Positions 50,017-56,576 are shown, counted from the first letter of the stretch. The stretch is 64,000 nt of DNA from Bradyrhizobium sp. (GCA_004799435.1 SSMV01000025.1:42959-106958), one strand, 5' to 3'. Notes: generated by a model not told the origin, from the sequence alone. Made by a program: numbers and translations.

Positions 50017-51798
50017 TCAACTCGCCGACAGACGGCGGCTCTCGACCGCCACCCGCCAGGCGTCGAGATCGGATAGCATCGCGCGGGTCGCCGCCTCCGC
50101 CGCGCCGCGCAGCGAGCGCAGATCGAGCGATTCCGACATGCGCGCCTTGAGCGCGCGCAATTGCTCGGCGGTACGACGCGAACGGCGCGCGAGATCCTCG
50201 TAGTCGCCAAACAGCCTGACGCCATAGGACGCCGTCGCGGCGGCGGGAAGAAAGATCGCCGCCGCCAGACCCCAGGATTCGAAGCTTTCGAGCCCGTTGG
50301 GATCGACGACATGCGCGACGAGATAAGCGACATTATTGGCGAGGGAGGCCAGCAGCAGCCCGAGGCCGATCCCCTCGTAGACGCGGTCGCGCCGCTCGAG
50401 CCGTTCGGCGTTGTGCAGATGATAGGCGAGTTGCTCGTCGACCAGCGCGGCAAGAATATCGCGGATCTCGCCCAGCAGATCGGCGAGTTCGCCGCTGAAC
50501 AGCGGCAGCTCGCGCGTGATCGCGCGGGCATACCAGCCGGGCCAGGCCGCCTGGGTCGGCTTGAGATGGGCCGGCCGCGCCCCCAATAACCAGGTCGGCG
50601 CAACGACCCGCAGCCGCTCGGCGAGTTCGCGCGCCTCGAACCACTGACTGTGCCAGCGCCGGCGCGTCGCGTAGAACACCAATCCGCCGACCAATGCGAC
50701 CGTCACGAATTCAAAACCCGCCGCGGCGAAATGGAGCTCGCGGAAGCGAGCCGCTCCGGCGACGAGCGCGCTAGCGACCACCGTCACAGAAGAGCTGAAC
50801 AGAAACAGCAGGCGATAGCGCCCGGCGTTTCGCACCGCGACCTCCTCGGAGGCGAGCAGCGCTTCGGCATAGACCCGCGTAGCGTCTCGATTGGCGTTCG
50901 ATTCGGTGACCGCCGCGCTGACGCGCGGCCAATGCGCGCGGGGCTGATCGAAATCGCGACCGTCGAAAACACGGCTCGCTCGCCGGCTGGCGGTTGCGCC
51001 GAGACGGCAATTGAGAAACTCGGTCAGTTCGGCGCGTTCGCTCGTCGATGACGGCGGCGCGACGAGGCGGGCGATCAGCGTCGCCAGCGTCGGCTCGAGC
51101 GGGCAGGGCGGAATGTCGAGCGTGCGGCGCACGGCGCTCTCGTCGGCGCTCGCTTCGGCCCAGAGCAGGCGGGCAGCGCCATTCTCGGGGTCGACGATAA
51201 TGATTGGCGCGCCGCGCCGCGCGGCTTCCTCAACGATCTGGCCGGTGCCGCCGCGCCCGTCGGCCGGCTTGCCGTCCCATACCGCGATCAGAATGTCCGA
51301 GAGCGCGAGCATCGTCAGCCCGGCCGCCTCGAAGGCGATCGGCAAACGCTCCGCCAGGGATTGCGCGGCGTCGCCCGCCAGCGGCAGCACGAGGCGGGCG
51401 CGGGCGCGTGCGAGCAGCGTGTCGAATTCGCCGTTCGATTGCGCGTCGGCGAAACTCCTCTTGTAAAGCGCCGGCGCGCAGGGAAGCGCGACGTCGAGCG
51501 CGAAGCCGGCCGACAGGGCGGCCTGGGCGGCCAGGCGATCGGCGCCCTCGGCAAGCGCCGAGACGAGGGTGACGATCGGCGCTTCGTCGCTGAAATTTTG
51601 TTTCACGCCTGCGTCGACCGCGGCCAGGCCCGCAGCGACCTTGGCGCAGATTTGATCGAGCGCTTTGCCGACCGCCGCGATGTCGAAAACCCGCAGCGCC
51701 CCTGGGCCGGCTTCGCCCTCGGCCGGGGCGCGGCGCAGGCGATGGCCGGTGACGCCAAGCGTCAGCGCCAATCGAGGCTTAGGCGGATGGCGGATCAT
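50017..51798 (-). CDS. SLOG-like nucleotide-sensor domain fused to a 2TM SLATT-like membrane module
   Basis: GVTGHRLRR; TLVSALAEGADRLAAQAAL; LALSDILIAVWDGKPADGRGGTGQIVEEAARRGAPIIIVD; two TM hairpins; VDEQLAYHLHNAERLERRD; C-terminal DLDAWRVAVESR. Confidence 0.8.
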   Translation of the reverse strand: MIRHPPKPRLALTLGVTGHRLRRAPAEGEAGPGALRVFDIAAVGKALDQICAKVAAGLAAVDAGVKQNFSDEAPIVTLVSALAEGADRLAAQAALSAGFALDVALPCAPALYKRSFADAQSNGEFDTLLARARARLVLPLAGDAAQSLAERLPIAFEAAGLTMLALSDILIAVWDGKPADGRGGTGQIVEEAARRGAPIIIVDPENGAARLLWAEASADESAVRRTLDIPPCPLEPTLATLIARLVAPPSSTSERAELTEFLNCRLGATASRRASRVFDGRDFDQPRAHWPRVSAAVTESNANRDATRVYAEALLASEEVAVRNAGRYRLLFLFSSSVTVVASALVAGAARFRELHFAAAGFEFVTVALVGGLVFYATRRRWHSQWFEARELAERLRVVAPTWLLGARPAHLKPTQAAWPGWYARAITRELPLFSGELADLLGEIRDILAALVDEQLAYHLHNAERLERRDRVYEGIGLGLLLASLANNVAYLVAHVVDPNGLESFESWGLAAAIFLPAAATASYGVRLFGDYEDLARRSRRTAEQLRALKARMSESLDLRSLRGAAEAATRAMLSDLDAWRVAVESRRLSAS

Positions 51799-51917
51799 CG
51801 CGGCGAGCCCTCGCTTCGCGCGCCGTCACGGGCGGCGCGCTCTTCGTTTCACGCTATTTTTCCACTCGACAAGTTCGCGCGATTGAATTTCAACTGAGGC
51901 GCGAAATCCAGCCCCGC

Positions 51918-53462
51918 ATGGCCATGTTACACGCCCCGCTTCCGCTGTCAGGACCGGACGATCTCAGGCTCGCCCCTGCGCTCAATCTCCTGTGGGCGGG
52001 CGGGCAGGCCTTCGATTCCGTCGTGATCGCCGAGGCGGCGGCGCTGCTTCACGCGGCGGCCCATGCGGCGGCGGTTCGCTGGCCCGACGTCTATCACGAG
52101 CCGATGCGCACGCGCCTCATCTGCCGCGCCGACGAACGGCCGCCCGCGGCGCTGGTCGAGGCGGCGCAGCAAGCCGGGCTTGAGGTCGACGCCAGCAACG
52201 GCGCGACCGCGACTTGCGATTTGGCGCTGACGGTGGATGCGGACTTCGCCGGGATTTCTGCCACCCTGCCGGCGTTGGTTGCGACAGCCGGCGCGCCGTT
52301 GCAATTCGCGCTCGACGCCGGGGCGGGGCCGCAGCTCGAAGGCGCGCCGCGCCGGCGCATCCTTTCGGCCGCGACGCCCGAGACGGTCGCCGAAAAATTG
52401 CTGTCGCCGCCGCGCCGCGTCGCCGAGCGGCGCAAGCTTGGCGAATATCTTACCGAGGACGCCAGCCGCAACGTTCGCCGTTACGAATATGCGCTGCTGC
52501 TTCGCCTGATCGGCGAACCGGCGGATTCCGCCGCCGGCGCGCCCGACGACGCCTGGGAGCGCGCCGTCGCCTTCAATGCCGGAGCAAGCGTCGATCGTTC
52601 CGCCCCGCTCGCCGCCCTGCGGCGCGAACAAGAGCGCGGCGACGCTCTGGCGCTTGCCTATGGCCGGCTGTGGCGCAGCTCGCTGTCGGCGCGATCCTTG
52701 TTGTTGTTTGCCGCCAATTTCGCGTCCGGCTTCGTCGGCGCGGTGTTTCCCGCCGCCTCGCCAGTGACGCTGCCGCTGCAATTCGGCATGACCGGACTGC
52801 TTTACCTCGATCAGCATCTCGCCAAGCGCAACCGCTGGCGCGCCAAGTGGATCGACTATCGCCGTGTCGCCGAAGTCGCTCGCATCGGCCGTTTCTGCGT
52901 GCTGGCGGGCGTCGCGCCGCCGGTGAGCCCGGATGGCGGCTGGATCGACTGGCGCCTGGAGCGTGTGTTGCGCGCCGCGCCGCCGCCGGCGCCATTGCCC
53001 GAGCGCGATGCGCCAGCTTTTCTCGCCCATCTGAGCGAGGTCGAGATCGACCGTCAGATCGCCTATCACCGCGGCGCCTATCGGCGTTTCCGCCGGCTCG
53101 ACGCGCGGCTGCGCCGCGCTGCACTGACCATCCTGCTCGCCACCATGGCTGTCGGCGCCGGTCTGGCGGTCGTCGCGATCTCAGGTCTGGTGCGCGCGCC
53201 GGTTTCGCTGTTGAGCGCGGTTGGCCTCGCGCTCAGCGCCGGACCGGGCCTGTTCGCCGCGCTCAACGGATTGCGCACTCTTCTCGACGTTCAGCGGCAG
53301 GGCGGGCGCTCGGCGCGCATCGGACTGGCGTTGCGTCGGTTGCGCCGCACGCTCGCCAGCGCGCCGCCCAGCGCGCTCGTCGCGCGCAGCGCCGCCGCGC
53401 GCGCTGCCGAGATCATGCTCGATGACGTCTCCGCCTGGGACAGGGCAATGGAAATCGTCTAA
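51918..53462 (+). CDS. Diverged SLATT-like membrane paralogue of the 50017-51798 protein with degenerate N-terminal SLOG-like region
   Basis: Shared motifs: WxxxWxxxRxxAExxR before TM2, (D/E)xQ(L/I)AYH, C-terminal DD/DLxAWxxAxE; N-terminal CDLALTVDADFAG..ATAGAPLQFALD aligns by eye with SDILIAVWDG..RRGAPIIIVD but lacks GGT. Confidence 0.65.
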   Translation: MAMLHAPLPLSGPDDLRLAPALNLLWAGGQAFDSVVIAEAAALLHAAAHAAAVRWPDVYHEPMRTRLICRADERPPAALVEAAQQAGLEVDASNGATATCDLALTVDADFAGISATLPALVATAGAPLQFALDAGAGPQLEGAPRRRILSAATPETVAEKLLSPPRRVAERRKLGEYLTEDASRNVRRYEYALLLRLIGEPADSAAGAPDDAWERAVAFNAGASVDRSAPLAALRREQERGDALALAYGRLWRSSLSARSLLLFAANFASGFVGAVFPAASPVTLPLQFGMTGLLYLDQHLAKRNRWRAKWIDYRRVAEVARIGRFCVLAGVAPPVSPDGGWIDWRLERVLRAAPPPAPLPERDAPAFLAHLSEVEIDRQIAYHRGAYRRFRRLDARLRRAALTILLATMAVGAGLAVVAISGLVRAPVSLLSAVGLALSAGPGLFAALNGLRTLLDVQRQGGRSARIGLALRRLRRTLASAPPSALVARSAAARAAEIMLDDVSAWDRAMEIV

Positions 53463-53490
53463 CCGTCCCAGCGGCGACAAGGAGGACTGC

Positions 53491-54639
53491 ATGAGCGACC
53501 CGCAGCCGAGCCAAGTCTCCGCCCGCGATCGCCATCTTTTCGCGCCCGGCCCCAAGCGTATTCTGGCGCTCGATGGCGGCGGCGTGCGCGGCGTCGTGGC
53601 GCTGGCCTTCCTCAAACAGATCGAACAGGAGCTGGCCGCCAAAGCCGGACATCCGGTGCGGCTCTGCGATCACTTCGACCTCATCGGCGGCACGTCGACC
53701 GGCGCCATCATCGCCGTCGCTTTGGCGTTGGGTTATCGCGTCGACGCCATCACCGAATTCTATCATCGTCTCGCGCCGCTGGTCTTTCGCTCGCCGATGA
53801 TCAGGCTGCCCGGCTGGAAGGCGATTTTCGACGCCACGGCGCTCGCCAGAGAGCTTGAAACAGTGATGGGCGATCGTCGGCTCGACACCGAGGATCTACA
53901 GACCGGCGTCGGCGTCATCCTCAAACGTCTCGACACCGGCAGCGCCTGGGTGCTGGTCAACAATCCGCGCTCGAAATATTGGGAGACGCCGGCCAATCAG
54001 GACTATATCGGCAACCGTCACTATCGCCTCGCGCAGATCGTTCGCGCCAGCACGGCCGCGCCGCATTATTTCGATCCGCAGGAAATCGCCATCGCCGAAG
54101 GCGTGCAGGGCCTGTTCGTCGACGGCGGCCTGACGCCGCACAACAATCCCGCGCTGGCGCTGTTCCTTGCCGCCTATATTCCGACGACCGGCCTCGGCTG
54201 GGGGACGGGGCCGGACAAACTAACAATTGTCTCGGTCGGCGCCGGCACGTTCCGCGACAGTTTCAAGACGCAGATGCTGAGCGGCGCCGCCTCGGCGCGT
54301 CTGGCGCTCAGGGCGATGATCCAACAGATCGGCGACTCGCAGCAATTGGTGCTCACTCTGATGTCGCTCTTTGGCGAAAGCCCGACGCCCTGGGCGATCA
54401 ACGCCGAACTCGGCGAACTCGGCTCGACGCCGGCGCCGGGCGGCCCGCTGTTTCGCTTCCTGCGCTATGACATCAAGCTCGATCAGGCCTGGCTGCAGGA
54501 GCGCCTGGGCGCCAAGGTCAGCGAGCAGCAAGTCGGCCAGATGCGCCGGCTCGACGACGTGCGCTCGATGCAGAAGCTCGGCGAATTGGCCGCCGAGGCG
54601 GCGCGCCGCCAAGTGAAGACGGAAGACTGGGGCGGCTGA
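53491..54639 (+). CDS. Patatin-like phospholipase (CapV-like catalytic motifs)
   Basis: LALDGGGVRGVVALAFL (oxyanion loop), GGTSTGAII (GXSXG Ser), VDGGLTPHNNPA (DGG Asp); AAGGAGG SD; 28 nt after the upstream ORF. Confidence 0.93.
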   Translation: MSDPQPSQVSARDRHLFAPGPKRILALDGGGVRGVVALAFLKQIEQELAAKAGHPVRLCDHFDLIGGTSTGAIIAVALALGYRVDAITEFYHRLAPLVFRSPMIRLPGWKAIFDATALARELETVMGDRRLDTEDLQTGVGVILKRLDTGSAWVLVNNPRSKYWETPANQDYIGNRHYRLAQIVRASTAAPHYFDPQEIAIAEGVQGLFVDGGLTPHNNPALALFLAAYIPTTGLGWGTGPDKLTIVSVGAGTFRDSFKTQMLSGAASARLALRAMIQQIGDSQQLVLTLMSLFGESPTPWAINAELGELGSTPAPGGPLFRFLRYDIKLDQAWLQERLGAKVSEQQVGQMRRLDDVRSMQKLGELAAEAARRQVKTEDWGG

Positions 54640-54759: not shown

Positions 54760-55545
54760 ATGTCGCTTGCCAAACGTCACGCGCTGGTCACCGGCTCGAC
54801 CAGCGGCATCGGCCTCGCCATCGCCCGCGCGCTCGCCAAGGAAGGCGCCGACGTCGTCATCAACGGCATGGGCGATCCCACCAAGATCGAGGCCGAGCGG
54901 ACGGGAATCGAGAAGGACTTCGGCGTGCGCGCTGTCTTCAACGGCGCCGACATGACCAAGCCAGCCGAAATCGCCGCGATGATCGCCGACGCGCAGACCA
55001 AGCTCGGTTCGCTCGATATCCTCGTCAATAACGCCGGCATTCAGTTCGTCTCGCCGATCGAGACTTTCCCGATCGAGAAATGGGACGCCATTCTGGCGAT
55101 CAATCTCTCTTCCGCCTTTCACGCGATGCGCGCCGCGATTCCCGGCATGAAAACCCAGAAATGGGGGCGCATCGTCTCGACCGCCTCCGCCCATTCTCTG
55201 GTCGCTTCGCCCTTCAAAGCCGCCTATGTGGCGGCCAAACACGGCCTCGCCGGCTTGACCAAGACGGCGGCGCTCGAATTGGCGACCTCCGGCGTCACGG
55301 TCAATTGCATCTCGCCTGGCTATGTCTGGACGCCGCTGGTCGAGAACCAGATTCCCGACACGATGAAGACGCGCGGCCTGACGCGCGAACAGGTGATCAA
55401 CGACGTGCTGCTGGTCGCGCAGCCGACCAAGCAATTCGTCACCGTCGATCAGGTTGCGGCGATGGTCGTCTATCTCTGCTCCGATGCGGCGGCCCAGGTC
55501 ACCGGCGCCAATCTCTCGATGGACGGCGGCTGGACCGCCGCATGA
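54760..55545 (+). CDS. bdhA: 3-hydroxybutyrate dehydrogenase (SDR)
   Basis: HALVTGSTSGIGLAIARALAKEGADVVINGMGD; ASAHSLVASPFKAAYVAAKHGLAGLTKTAALE; TVNCISPGYVWTPLVENQI. Confidence 0.94.
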   Translation: MSLAKRHALVTGSTSGIGLAIARALAKEGADVVINGMGDPTKIEAERTGIEKDFGVRAVFNGADMTKPAEIAAMIADAQTKLGSLDILVNNAGIQFVSPIETFPIEKWDAILAINLSSAFHAMRAAIPGMKTQKWGRIVSTASAHSLVASPFKAAYVAAKHGLAGLTKTAALELATSGVTVNCISPGYVWTPLVENQIPDTMKTRGLTREQVINDVLLVAQPTKQFVTVDQVAAMVVYLCSDAAAQVTGANLSMDGGWTAA

Positions 55546-56576
55546 ATGATTCGCCCAAGACGATCAATCTGGCGCTGCAGGGCGGCGGCTCGCATGGCGC
55601 CTTCACCTGGGGCGCGCTCGACGCCCTGATCGCGGACGAGCGTATCGAGATTGGCGCGATTTCCGGCGCCAGCGCCGGCGCGATGAACGCCGTCGTCTTC
55701 GCCAGCGGCATGCTGGAGGGCGGCCGCGACGCCGCCAGACGCAAACTGCATAATTTTTGGCTGTCGGTCAGCGCTGAGGGGTCACTGACGCCGATCCAGC
55801 GCGGCTTCTACGACGCGTGGTTCGAAGCCTGGCGCGCGGCGCTGCCGCAGGCGGGCGCGATGTGGGACGCGCTCGCGACTTTCGTCAGCCCCTATGACGC
55901 CAATCCGCTCGATCTGAGCCCGTTGCGCGATCATCTCACGCAGCTCGTCGATTTCGACGCGCTGCGTAAGATGCCAGGGCCAAAGATCTTTGTCGCCGCC
56001 ACCAATGTGCACACCGGGCGTGGCGAGGTCTTCCGCCGCGACATATTGACGCCCGATCACATCATGGCCTCGTCCTGTCTGCCGCGCCTCTTTCGCGCAG
56101 TCGACATCGACGGCGAGCCCTATTGGGACGGCGGCTACGCCGGCAATCCGCCGCTCTGGCCGCTGTTCTACGAGACCGATTGCCGCGACACGGTGATCGT
56201 GCAGATCAACCCGGTCGAGCGTCACGCGACGCCGCACACCGCGCAAGAAATCGCCAATCGCGTCAATGAAATCACCTTCAACGCAGCGCTGCTCGGCGAA
56301 TTGCGCGCCGCCGATTTCGTCGCCCGGCTGATCGAAAGGGGTGCGCTGAAGGAAGGCGAGGGCTATCGCCGCGAGCTGCTCCATCGCATCGGCGGCGCCG
56401 GAAAGCTCGAAAGCTTCGGCGCCGCCTCCAAATTCGACGTAACCTGGAGCTTTCTCGTCGCGCTTTGCGAACTCGGGCGGCAGGCGACGCGCGAATGGCT
56501 CGACGAGAATTTCGCCGCCATCGGCGAGCGCTCGACGCTGAACATCGACCAGGCGCTGCGCCGCAAGCCGGCGTGA
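55542..56576 (+). CDS. Patatin-like phospholipase (second, PHB-locus type)
   Basis: NLALQGGGSHGAFTWGALDAL; ISGASAGAMNAVV; WDGGYAGNPPLWPLF; ATGA overlap with bdhA. Confidence 0.94.
   Translation: MNDSPKTINLALQGGGSHGAFTWGALDALIADERIEIGAISGASAGAMNAVVFASGMLEGGRDAARRKLHNFWLSVSAEGSLTPIQRGFYDAWFEAWRAALPQAGAMWDALATFVSPYDANPLDLSPLRDHLTQLVDFDALRKMPGPKIFVAATNVHTGRGEVFRRDILTPDHIMASSCLPRLFRAVDIDGEPYWDGGYAGNPPLWPLFYETDCRDTVIVQINPVERHATPHTAQEIANRVNEITFNAALLGELRAADFVARLIERGALKEGEGYRRELLHRIGGAGKLESFGAASKFDVTWSFLVALCELGRQATREWLDENFAAIGERSTLNIDQALRRKPA

Follow-up and report, generated by a model that had tools for sequence, protein, structure and literature searches.

A SLOG–SLATT gene, its diverged paralogue and a patatin-like phospholipase gene form a conserved accessory module in Bradyrhizobium

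The three genes and their products

The window analysed here is a 64,000-nucleotide stretch of a Bradyrhizobium sp. genome that carries a compact group of three genes. Gene A (50017..51798, minus strand) encodes a 593-aa protein that combines a SLOG-type domain with tandem 2TM SLATT/DUF4231 modules. Gene B (51918..53462, plus strand) encodes a diverged paralogue of A of 514 aa. The two are divergent and separated by 119 nt (51799..51917), in which a promoter scan returned one weak match only and no clear shared promoter. Gene C (53491..54639, plus strand) encodes a patatin-like phospholipase of 382 aa. Its ATG at 53491 lies 28 nt after the stop of B, with an AAGGAGG Shine-Dalgarno sequence (53479..53485, plus strand) 5 nt upstream. 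An earlier sequence-only reading had described the three reading frames, the 28-nt gap, the Shine-Dalgarno sequence and complete catalytic motifs in the patatin, and all of these are present. The neighbours of the triad in the window are housekeeping genes (HK/RR, HugZ, bdhA and NmrA), and no recognised defence island surrounds it. The interval from the triad to NmrA (54760-56576) holds a bdhA-like SDR gene overlapped over 4 bp by another patatin-like gene. Comparison with a congener (L212, genome G405) shows purifying selection on A, B and C, in the range of their neighbours (dN/dS 0.27, 0.43 and 0.24, respectively, compared to 0.21 for HK, 0.34 for NmrA and 0.45 for HugZ).

The predicted SLOG domain of A spans residues ~8-245 (51064..51777, minus strand) and carries the motifs GVTGHR, LAEGADR and WDG...GRGGT; GVTGHR, LAEGADR and WDG...GGT are common to its relatives. 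It is followed by a first 2TM SLATT/DUF4231 module at residues 301-409 (50572..50898, minus strand; Pfam, hydropathy and model) and a second, SLATT_1-like module at residues 438-587 (50038..50487, minus strand; Pfam/NCBIfam, hydropathy and model). Hydropathy and the AlphaFold2 model (pLDDT 84, pTM 0.85) give two 2TM hairpins, or four TM segments. The SLOG-like N-terminus proposed earlier is thus retained, and the single 2TM module has to be replaced by two. A matches DUF4231 (PF14015) with E=2.2e-5 and 25.3 bits, against a Pfam gathering score of 24.7, and lies just under the cut-off of NCBIfam SLATT_1 (E=7.4e-10, 38.9 bits against 41). Matches to Pfam SLATT_3 and SLATT_1 were under their gathering scores, and that of the N-terminus to the SLOG family YAcAr was sub-threshold (E=0.0067, 16.7 bits against 28.2). 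PADLOC returned a weak match of A to ShosA, and PDB sequence searches gave nothing meaningful for either A or the SLOG profile. In the model the N-terminus is a Rossmannoid domain, and the nearest solved folds found by Foldseek were DprA, ShosA, LOG-like proteins and the Moco carrier protein. The matches reach probabilities of up to 1.00, but their E-values stay at 0.03-0.18, since a single domain within a long chain accounts for them. The Rossmannoid matches offer independent support for a SLOG domain beside the weak Pfam matches. Profile searches did find SLOG/SLATT signal in A, as the earlier reading supposed; the SLOG assignment draws on sub-threshold Pfam matches and fold matches with weak E-values.

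LOG enzymes carry the catalytic motif PGGxGTxxE, with a catalytic Glu. This Glu is absent from A (GRGGTGQI), and its position is hydrophobic in most of the relatives listed. Since the position is not conserved, a role of the A SLOG domain as a LOG-type phosphoribohydrolase was rejected, and the hydrophobic residue makes a binding domain more likely than a hydrolase.

The N-terminal domain of B (51987..52397, plus strand) has lost the SLOG motifs and is possibly a degenerate SLOG/Rossmann remnant. The AlphaFold2 model of B, poorer than that of A (pLDDT 72), shows this domain as alpha-beta-alpha-beta-beta in a region of low confidence, and hhalign placed it in register with SLOG at a non-significant probability of 7.7%. 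Two 2TM modules follow, at residues 228-330 (52599..52907, plus strand; Pfam, hydropathy and model) and 362-513 (53001..53456, plus strand; hydropathy and model), and by hydropathy and AlphaFold2 they form two hairpins with four TM segments. The score of B against the SLATT/DUF4231 family was 14.0 bits, below the cut-off, and its fold search gave no significant match, with coiled-coil-type chance matches only. Over their SLATT parts, A and B are 26% identical (E=3.5e-5), and the B profile picks up A in its own genome at E=4e-15. The best reading of B is therefore that it diverged from A as a paralogue. To the 2TM motifs that B had been said to share with A, a second module and the degenerate N-terminal domain are now added.

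Judged by its sequence, C belongs to the patatin phospholipases and has kept the catalytic dyad intact. It matches the patatin family PF01734 with E=5.1e-30 and 105.5 bits (cut-off 27.7). The oxyanion-hole motif GGGVRG is at residues 29-34 (53575..53592), the GTSTG nucleophile elbow with catalytic Ser69 at 53689..53703, and the DGG motif with catalytic Asp211 at 54121..54129, all on the plus strand; S69, D211 and G212 are invariant across 15 aligned homologues.

Conservation of the module in relatives

The full triad, with A on the minus strand and B and the patatin on the plus strand, was found in the window, in the congener L212 and in a Methylovirgula MAG (L088, a record that seems to be identical with G475). 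In L212 the order is HK, RR, HugZ, A, B and patatin, with the same left flank as in the window. Here B and the patatin overlap by 4 bp, NmrA directly follows the patatin, and the bdhA-like gene and additional patatin gene that the window has at this point are absent (L212 9797-9880). A and B are also divergent in L218 (G316), where the contig stops before a third gene could appear. In Methylocapsa sp. S129 (L089/L213), B and the patatin are present and a divergent WD40-caspase gene occupies the position of A; the A homologue of this strain lies on another contig, adjoining a second WD40 gene of the same type. The starts of the L088 patatin and of the L089 B were taken from tblastn coordinates. 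Pairs of A and patatin were found in L070, L072, L097, L102 (Nitrospirales), L135, L136, L215, L216 and L227.

The sequence-only reading had proposed a single module, which depended on the genes being neighbours in relatives. The triads of L212 and L088 and the partial sets elsewhere bear this out, and the conserved order and neighbours in the window, L212, L088, L218, L089/L213 and the A-patatin loci make a conserved module of A, B and C well supported. It is an accessory module, since in several other congeners the HugZ site is present and gene A is absent within the downstream sequence covered. Among 246 genomes of the family, the B model matched in 12, some of these matches being A-type proteins, and the patatin clade was present in 18. 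A universal three-gene system was rejected, as B occurs in few genomes of the window's family only and A with patatin or with other partners is commoner.

Several further gene arrangements were observed. The WD40-caspase gene adjoining B and the patatin in Methylocapsa sp. S129 is of PG_binding-WD40-caspase type (L213:11086-14010). Its contig-truncated paralogue lies beside the A homologue (L242:2401-4272), and a similar gene adjoins a SLATT-like reading frame at G412:C251:20440-24212. This gene type may be yet another exchangeable partner, and the window genome showed no close homologue of it. A stand-alone 593-aa protein at L219:2158-3939, with no patatin nearby, matches both the SLOG and the B profiles and may represent a form intermediate between the two genes A and B. 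At L217:359-4037, genes for a patatin, a SLOG-only protein and a SLOG-SLATT protein form a same-strand overlapping run, which is another three-gene arrangement. Finally, a conserved secreted or lipoprotein-like gene recurs near the module in several relatives (L088:4954-6093, L213:14153-15418, L216:1950-3080, L072:2211-3221 and L097:10925-11911); the L213 copy has no Pfam match, and in the window no such gene adjoins the module.

Sensor-type partners of the wider patatin clade

A patatin-profile scan with one genome per species returned at least 80 loci across many phyla. Together with the loci from genome searches they gave 104 patatin neighbourhoods, annotated with our own gene caller and iterated HMMs. 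In 52 of the 104 loci, the patatin has a SLOG, SLATT, TPR-S, RyR or DRHyd-like gene no more than two genes away, and about half of the loci have no recognised sensor gene within this distance. One locus (L089/L213) is counted twice, and there is close relatedness among the Bradyrhizobium, Hyphomonadaceae and some other loci, so that these counts overstate independence. With the duplicate removed, sensor genes occupied 52/198 positions at ±1, 18/178 at ±2, 3/166 at ±3, 2/155 at ±4, 1/131 at ±5 and 0/267 at six or more. Partner labels are our own HMM calls except for the Pfam-scanned proteins, and the genomes include many draft MAGs. Pfam confirmed TrkA_N with RyR in L068, TrkA_N with a sub-threshold RyR in L154, RyR in L072 and L216, and TPR-S in L085 and L112. 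In L079 the partner is a TPR-S protein with a guanylate-cyclase-like domain and a SLOG-like region. In a Chromatiales MAG, a DRHyd-like-TPR-S-SLATT fusion with a strong SLATT/DUF4231 match directly follows the patatin (L107:5999-8083), a compact version that would be useful experimentally.

The SLOG family is present in 17 of the 18 family genomes with the patatin clade, in some of which it sits elsewhere in the genome. It was found in 8 of 228 genomes without the clade (p=2.7e-19) and in none of 31 genomes with only distant patatins (Fisher 2.8e-12), the division into close and distant patatins having been drawn after the hit list and scores were seen.

The partner domain types bind or process nucleotides, often NAD+ or ADP-ribose derivatives. 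TPR-S, for example, was reportedly predicted by Burroughs and Aravind in 2020 to read NAD+-derived signals. A phage protein with an RyR domain has been described that both binds 2'/3'cADPR and degrades it (PMC13232231). That such partners are interchangeable beside one lipase points to a nucleotide input, probably NAD+-derived.

Within the locus no signal synthase was seen, and no TIR gene lies next to the module in the window. Elsewhere in the window genome there are three TIR_2 matches, one CD-NTase-type match and one DRHyd-like-TPR-S protein (L240:1186-2520; G000 contig C16), all on other contigs and none of them tied to the module by position. The signal could be made by an unlinked TIR protein or by A itself. 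By eye, the L240 protein has neighbouring reading frames that resemble a TetR-type regulator and DnaE2/ImuB, and no patatin was seen nearby. A TPR-S match of this kind is present in G405 as well.

A proposed mechanism, its alternatives and known systems

We propose that the module reads a nucleotide signal at the membrane and responds with membrane damage, a model that we consider to have an even chance of being right. The cytosolic SLOG domain of A would bind a nucleotide that the cell produces under stress or infection, with an NAD+ or ADP-ribose derivative as the likeliest ligand. The four-helix SLATT part of A would assemble in the inner membrane with B, which would act as a related subunit without recognisable sensor motifs. 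A ligand-induced change would then activate the patatin, leading to phospholipid cleavage, and/or open a pore formed by A and B, and the cell would arrest growth or die. The stress or anti-phage role, the ligand, the gating of the lipase and the A–B complex are all elements that we infer. Support for the model comes from the conserved gene order, the coupling of B to the patatin, purifying selection, the domains themselves, the intact dyad, the four TM segments and the position-dependent association of the patatin clade with nucleotide-type sensor domains, and the solved patatins nearest to C, CapV and related phospholipases, are activated by nucleotides. The housekeeping surroundings, a locus in which no signal synthase was seen, the generic PADLOC assignment, the modest SLOG scores and the related patatin loci with no recognised sensor gene nearby weigh against it. 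YpsA-like SLOG domains include cADPR sensors, SLATT is a predicted ADPr-regulated effector of membrane permeability (PMC9503650), and DRT10 phage defence in E. coli needs a SLATT gene (PMC12632851).

The strongest alternative, which we nevertheless judge rather unlikely, is that the A/B pore and a separately acting patatin answer one diffusible signal in parallel, with no direct regulation of C by A. SLATT is predicted to be a pore-forming effector in its own right (PMC7159879; PMC12632851), CapV-type patatins are directly activated by nucleotides, and sensor-type genes are swapped beside the same patatin, all of which would suit two parallel effectors. The tight coupling of B to the patatin (28-nt gap; 4-bp overlap in L212) and the fusion of SLOG and SLATT in A argue for regulation within the module instead. 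Co-inheritance of SLOG and the patatin clade (17/18) fits such interdependence and is compatible with parallel action too.

It is improbable that the module is a housekeeping device for envelope stress or lipid remodelling rather than for immunity. This reading is favoured by the fixed chromosomal site by a two-component system, flanked in L212 as it is in the window, and by purifying selection like that of its neighbours. However, its spread is patchy (12/246 family genomes for the B model and 18/246 for the patatin clade), the HugZ site of several congeners lacks gene A within the downstream sequence covered, and partners of sensor type are exchanged in the manner of conflict systems.

A CBASS-like arrangement, in which C would be a CapV-type effector responding to a cyclic oligonucleotide from a CD-NTase, appears very improbable. 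The nearest solved relatives of C are indeed CapV (PDB 8zr9) and a cUMP-AMP-activated phospholipase (9iom), which share with it the patatin fold and the GGGxRG, GxSxG and DGG motifs. PADLOC assigned C to generic CBASS phospholipase models (2.9e-45), its sole assignment in the triad besides the weak ShosA match of A. However, C scored 117.4 bits (E=7.5e-34) against NCBIfam CBASS_lipase NF041079, far below the equivalog cut-off of 200. No CD-NTase was seen at the locus, and SMODS (CD-NTase) was found in one of five genomes with the module or part of it, on another contig, and not in the other four, some of which are incomplete MAGs. These observations together disfavour a locus-linked CBASS, and membership of C was rejected on the missing locus CD-NTase and the NF041079 score. 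The comparison with CapV made in the sequence-only reading therefore holds for fold and catalytic motifs and fails for CBASS membership: C is related to CapV but lies outside CBASS. Unlike CapV, C has membrane SLOG-SLATT partners and no CD-NTase, and the CapV match covers positions 13-258 of 380 in the C-clade profile, leaving the clade-conserved C-terminal region outside. Chance adjacency of unrelated membrane genes and a lipase, for which the promoter scan without a clear shared promoter could be cited, is hardly credible and is ruled out by the gene order kept in other genomes and the strong positional enrichment of sensor genes.

SLATT/DUF4231 2TM effectors and SLOG domains were reportedly described by Burroughs et al. 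in 2015. A review also covers them (PMC9503650). A and B resemble them in their 2TM helical modules, with SLATT_1, SLATT_3 and DUF4231 matches, and in the Rossmannoid SLOG domain fused in A. They differ in having two modules per protein, two paralogues side by side and a patatin partner, and most of their scores are near or below the family cut-offs. In Thoeris, ThsA is a SIR2-SLOG protein activated by cADPR (PMC11204291). Both would place SLOG in a nucleotide-regulated effector system, which for our module is a prediction; its effector is a lipase and SLATT instead of SIR2, and in the window there is no adjacent TIR gene. TRPM channels also carry an LSDAT/SLOG region, and like A they join a SLOG-type domain to a membrane part. 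TRPM8 appeared in the Foldseek list of A with a probability of 0.06-0.09; A has no ion-channel fold and the likeness is an analogy only. The module can also be compared with TPR-S and RyR conflict systems (RyR in PMC13232231): in relatives, patatins of this clade have TPR-S, DRHyd-like and RyR genes as neighbours, whereas the window version is SLOG-SLATT. Literature searches for SLATT with SLOG and patatin, DUF4231 with patatin, and patatin with TPR-S returned no papers in the collection covered; an earlier description in SLOG/SLATT or TPR-S surveys may exist. The module thus consists of known parts, those of nucleotide-regulated membrane effectors, in a combination that we did not find described.

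More tentatively, and with the odds rather against it, the patatin clade might represent an undescribed, CD-NTase-independent immune family. One phospholipase would be combined with swappable receptors of NAD+/ADPR type (SLOG-SLATT, TrkA_N-RyR and DRHyd-TPR-S-SLOG), and the A/B pair would sit in the membrane as a receptor and gate the lipase directly. If this is true, nucleotide-activated phospholipase immunity would reach beyond cGAS-like CBASS to probable NAD+/ADPR signalling. SLATT proteins, whose role as pores is a prediction, would gain a partner enzyme of measurable activity. One lipase with swappable sensors would also be a natural experiment, in which the shared effector could reveal the ligand of each sensor class.
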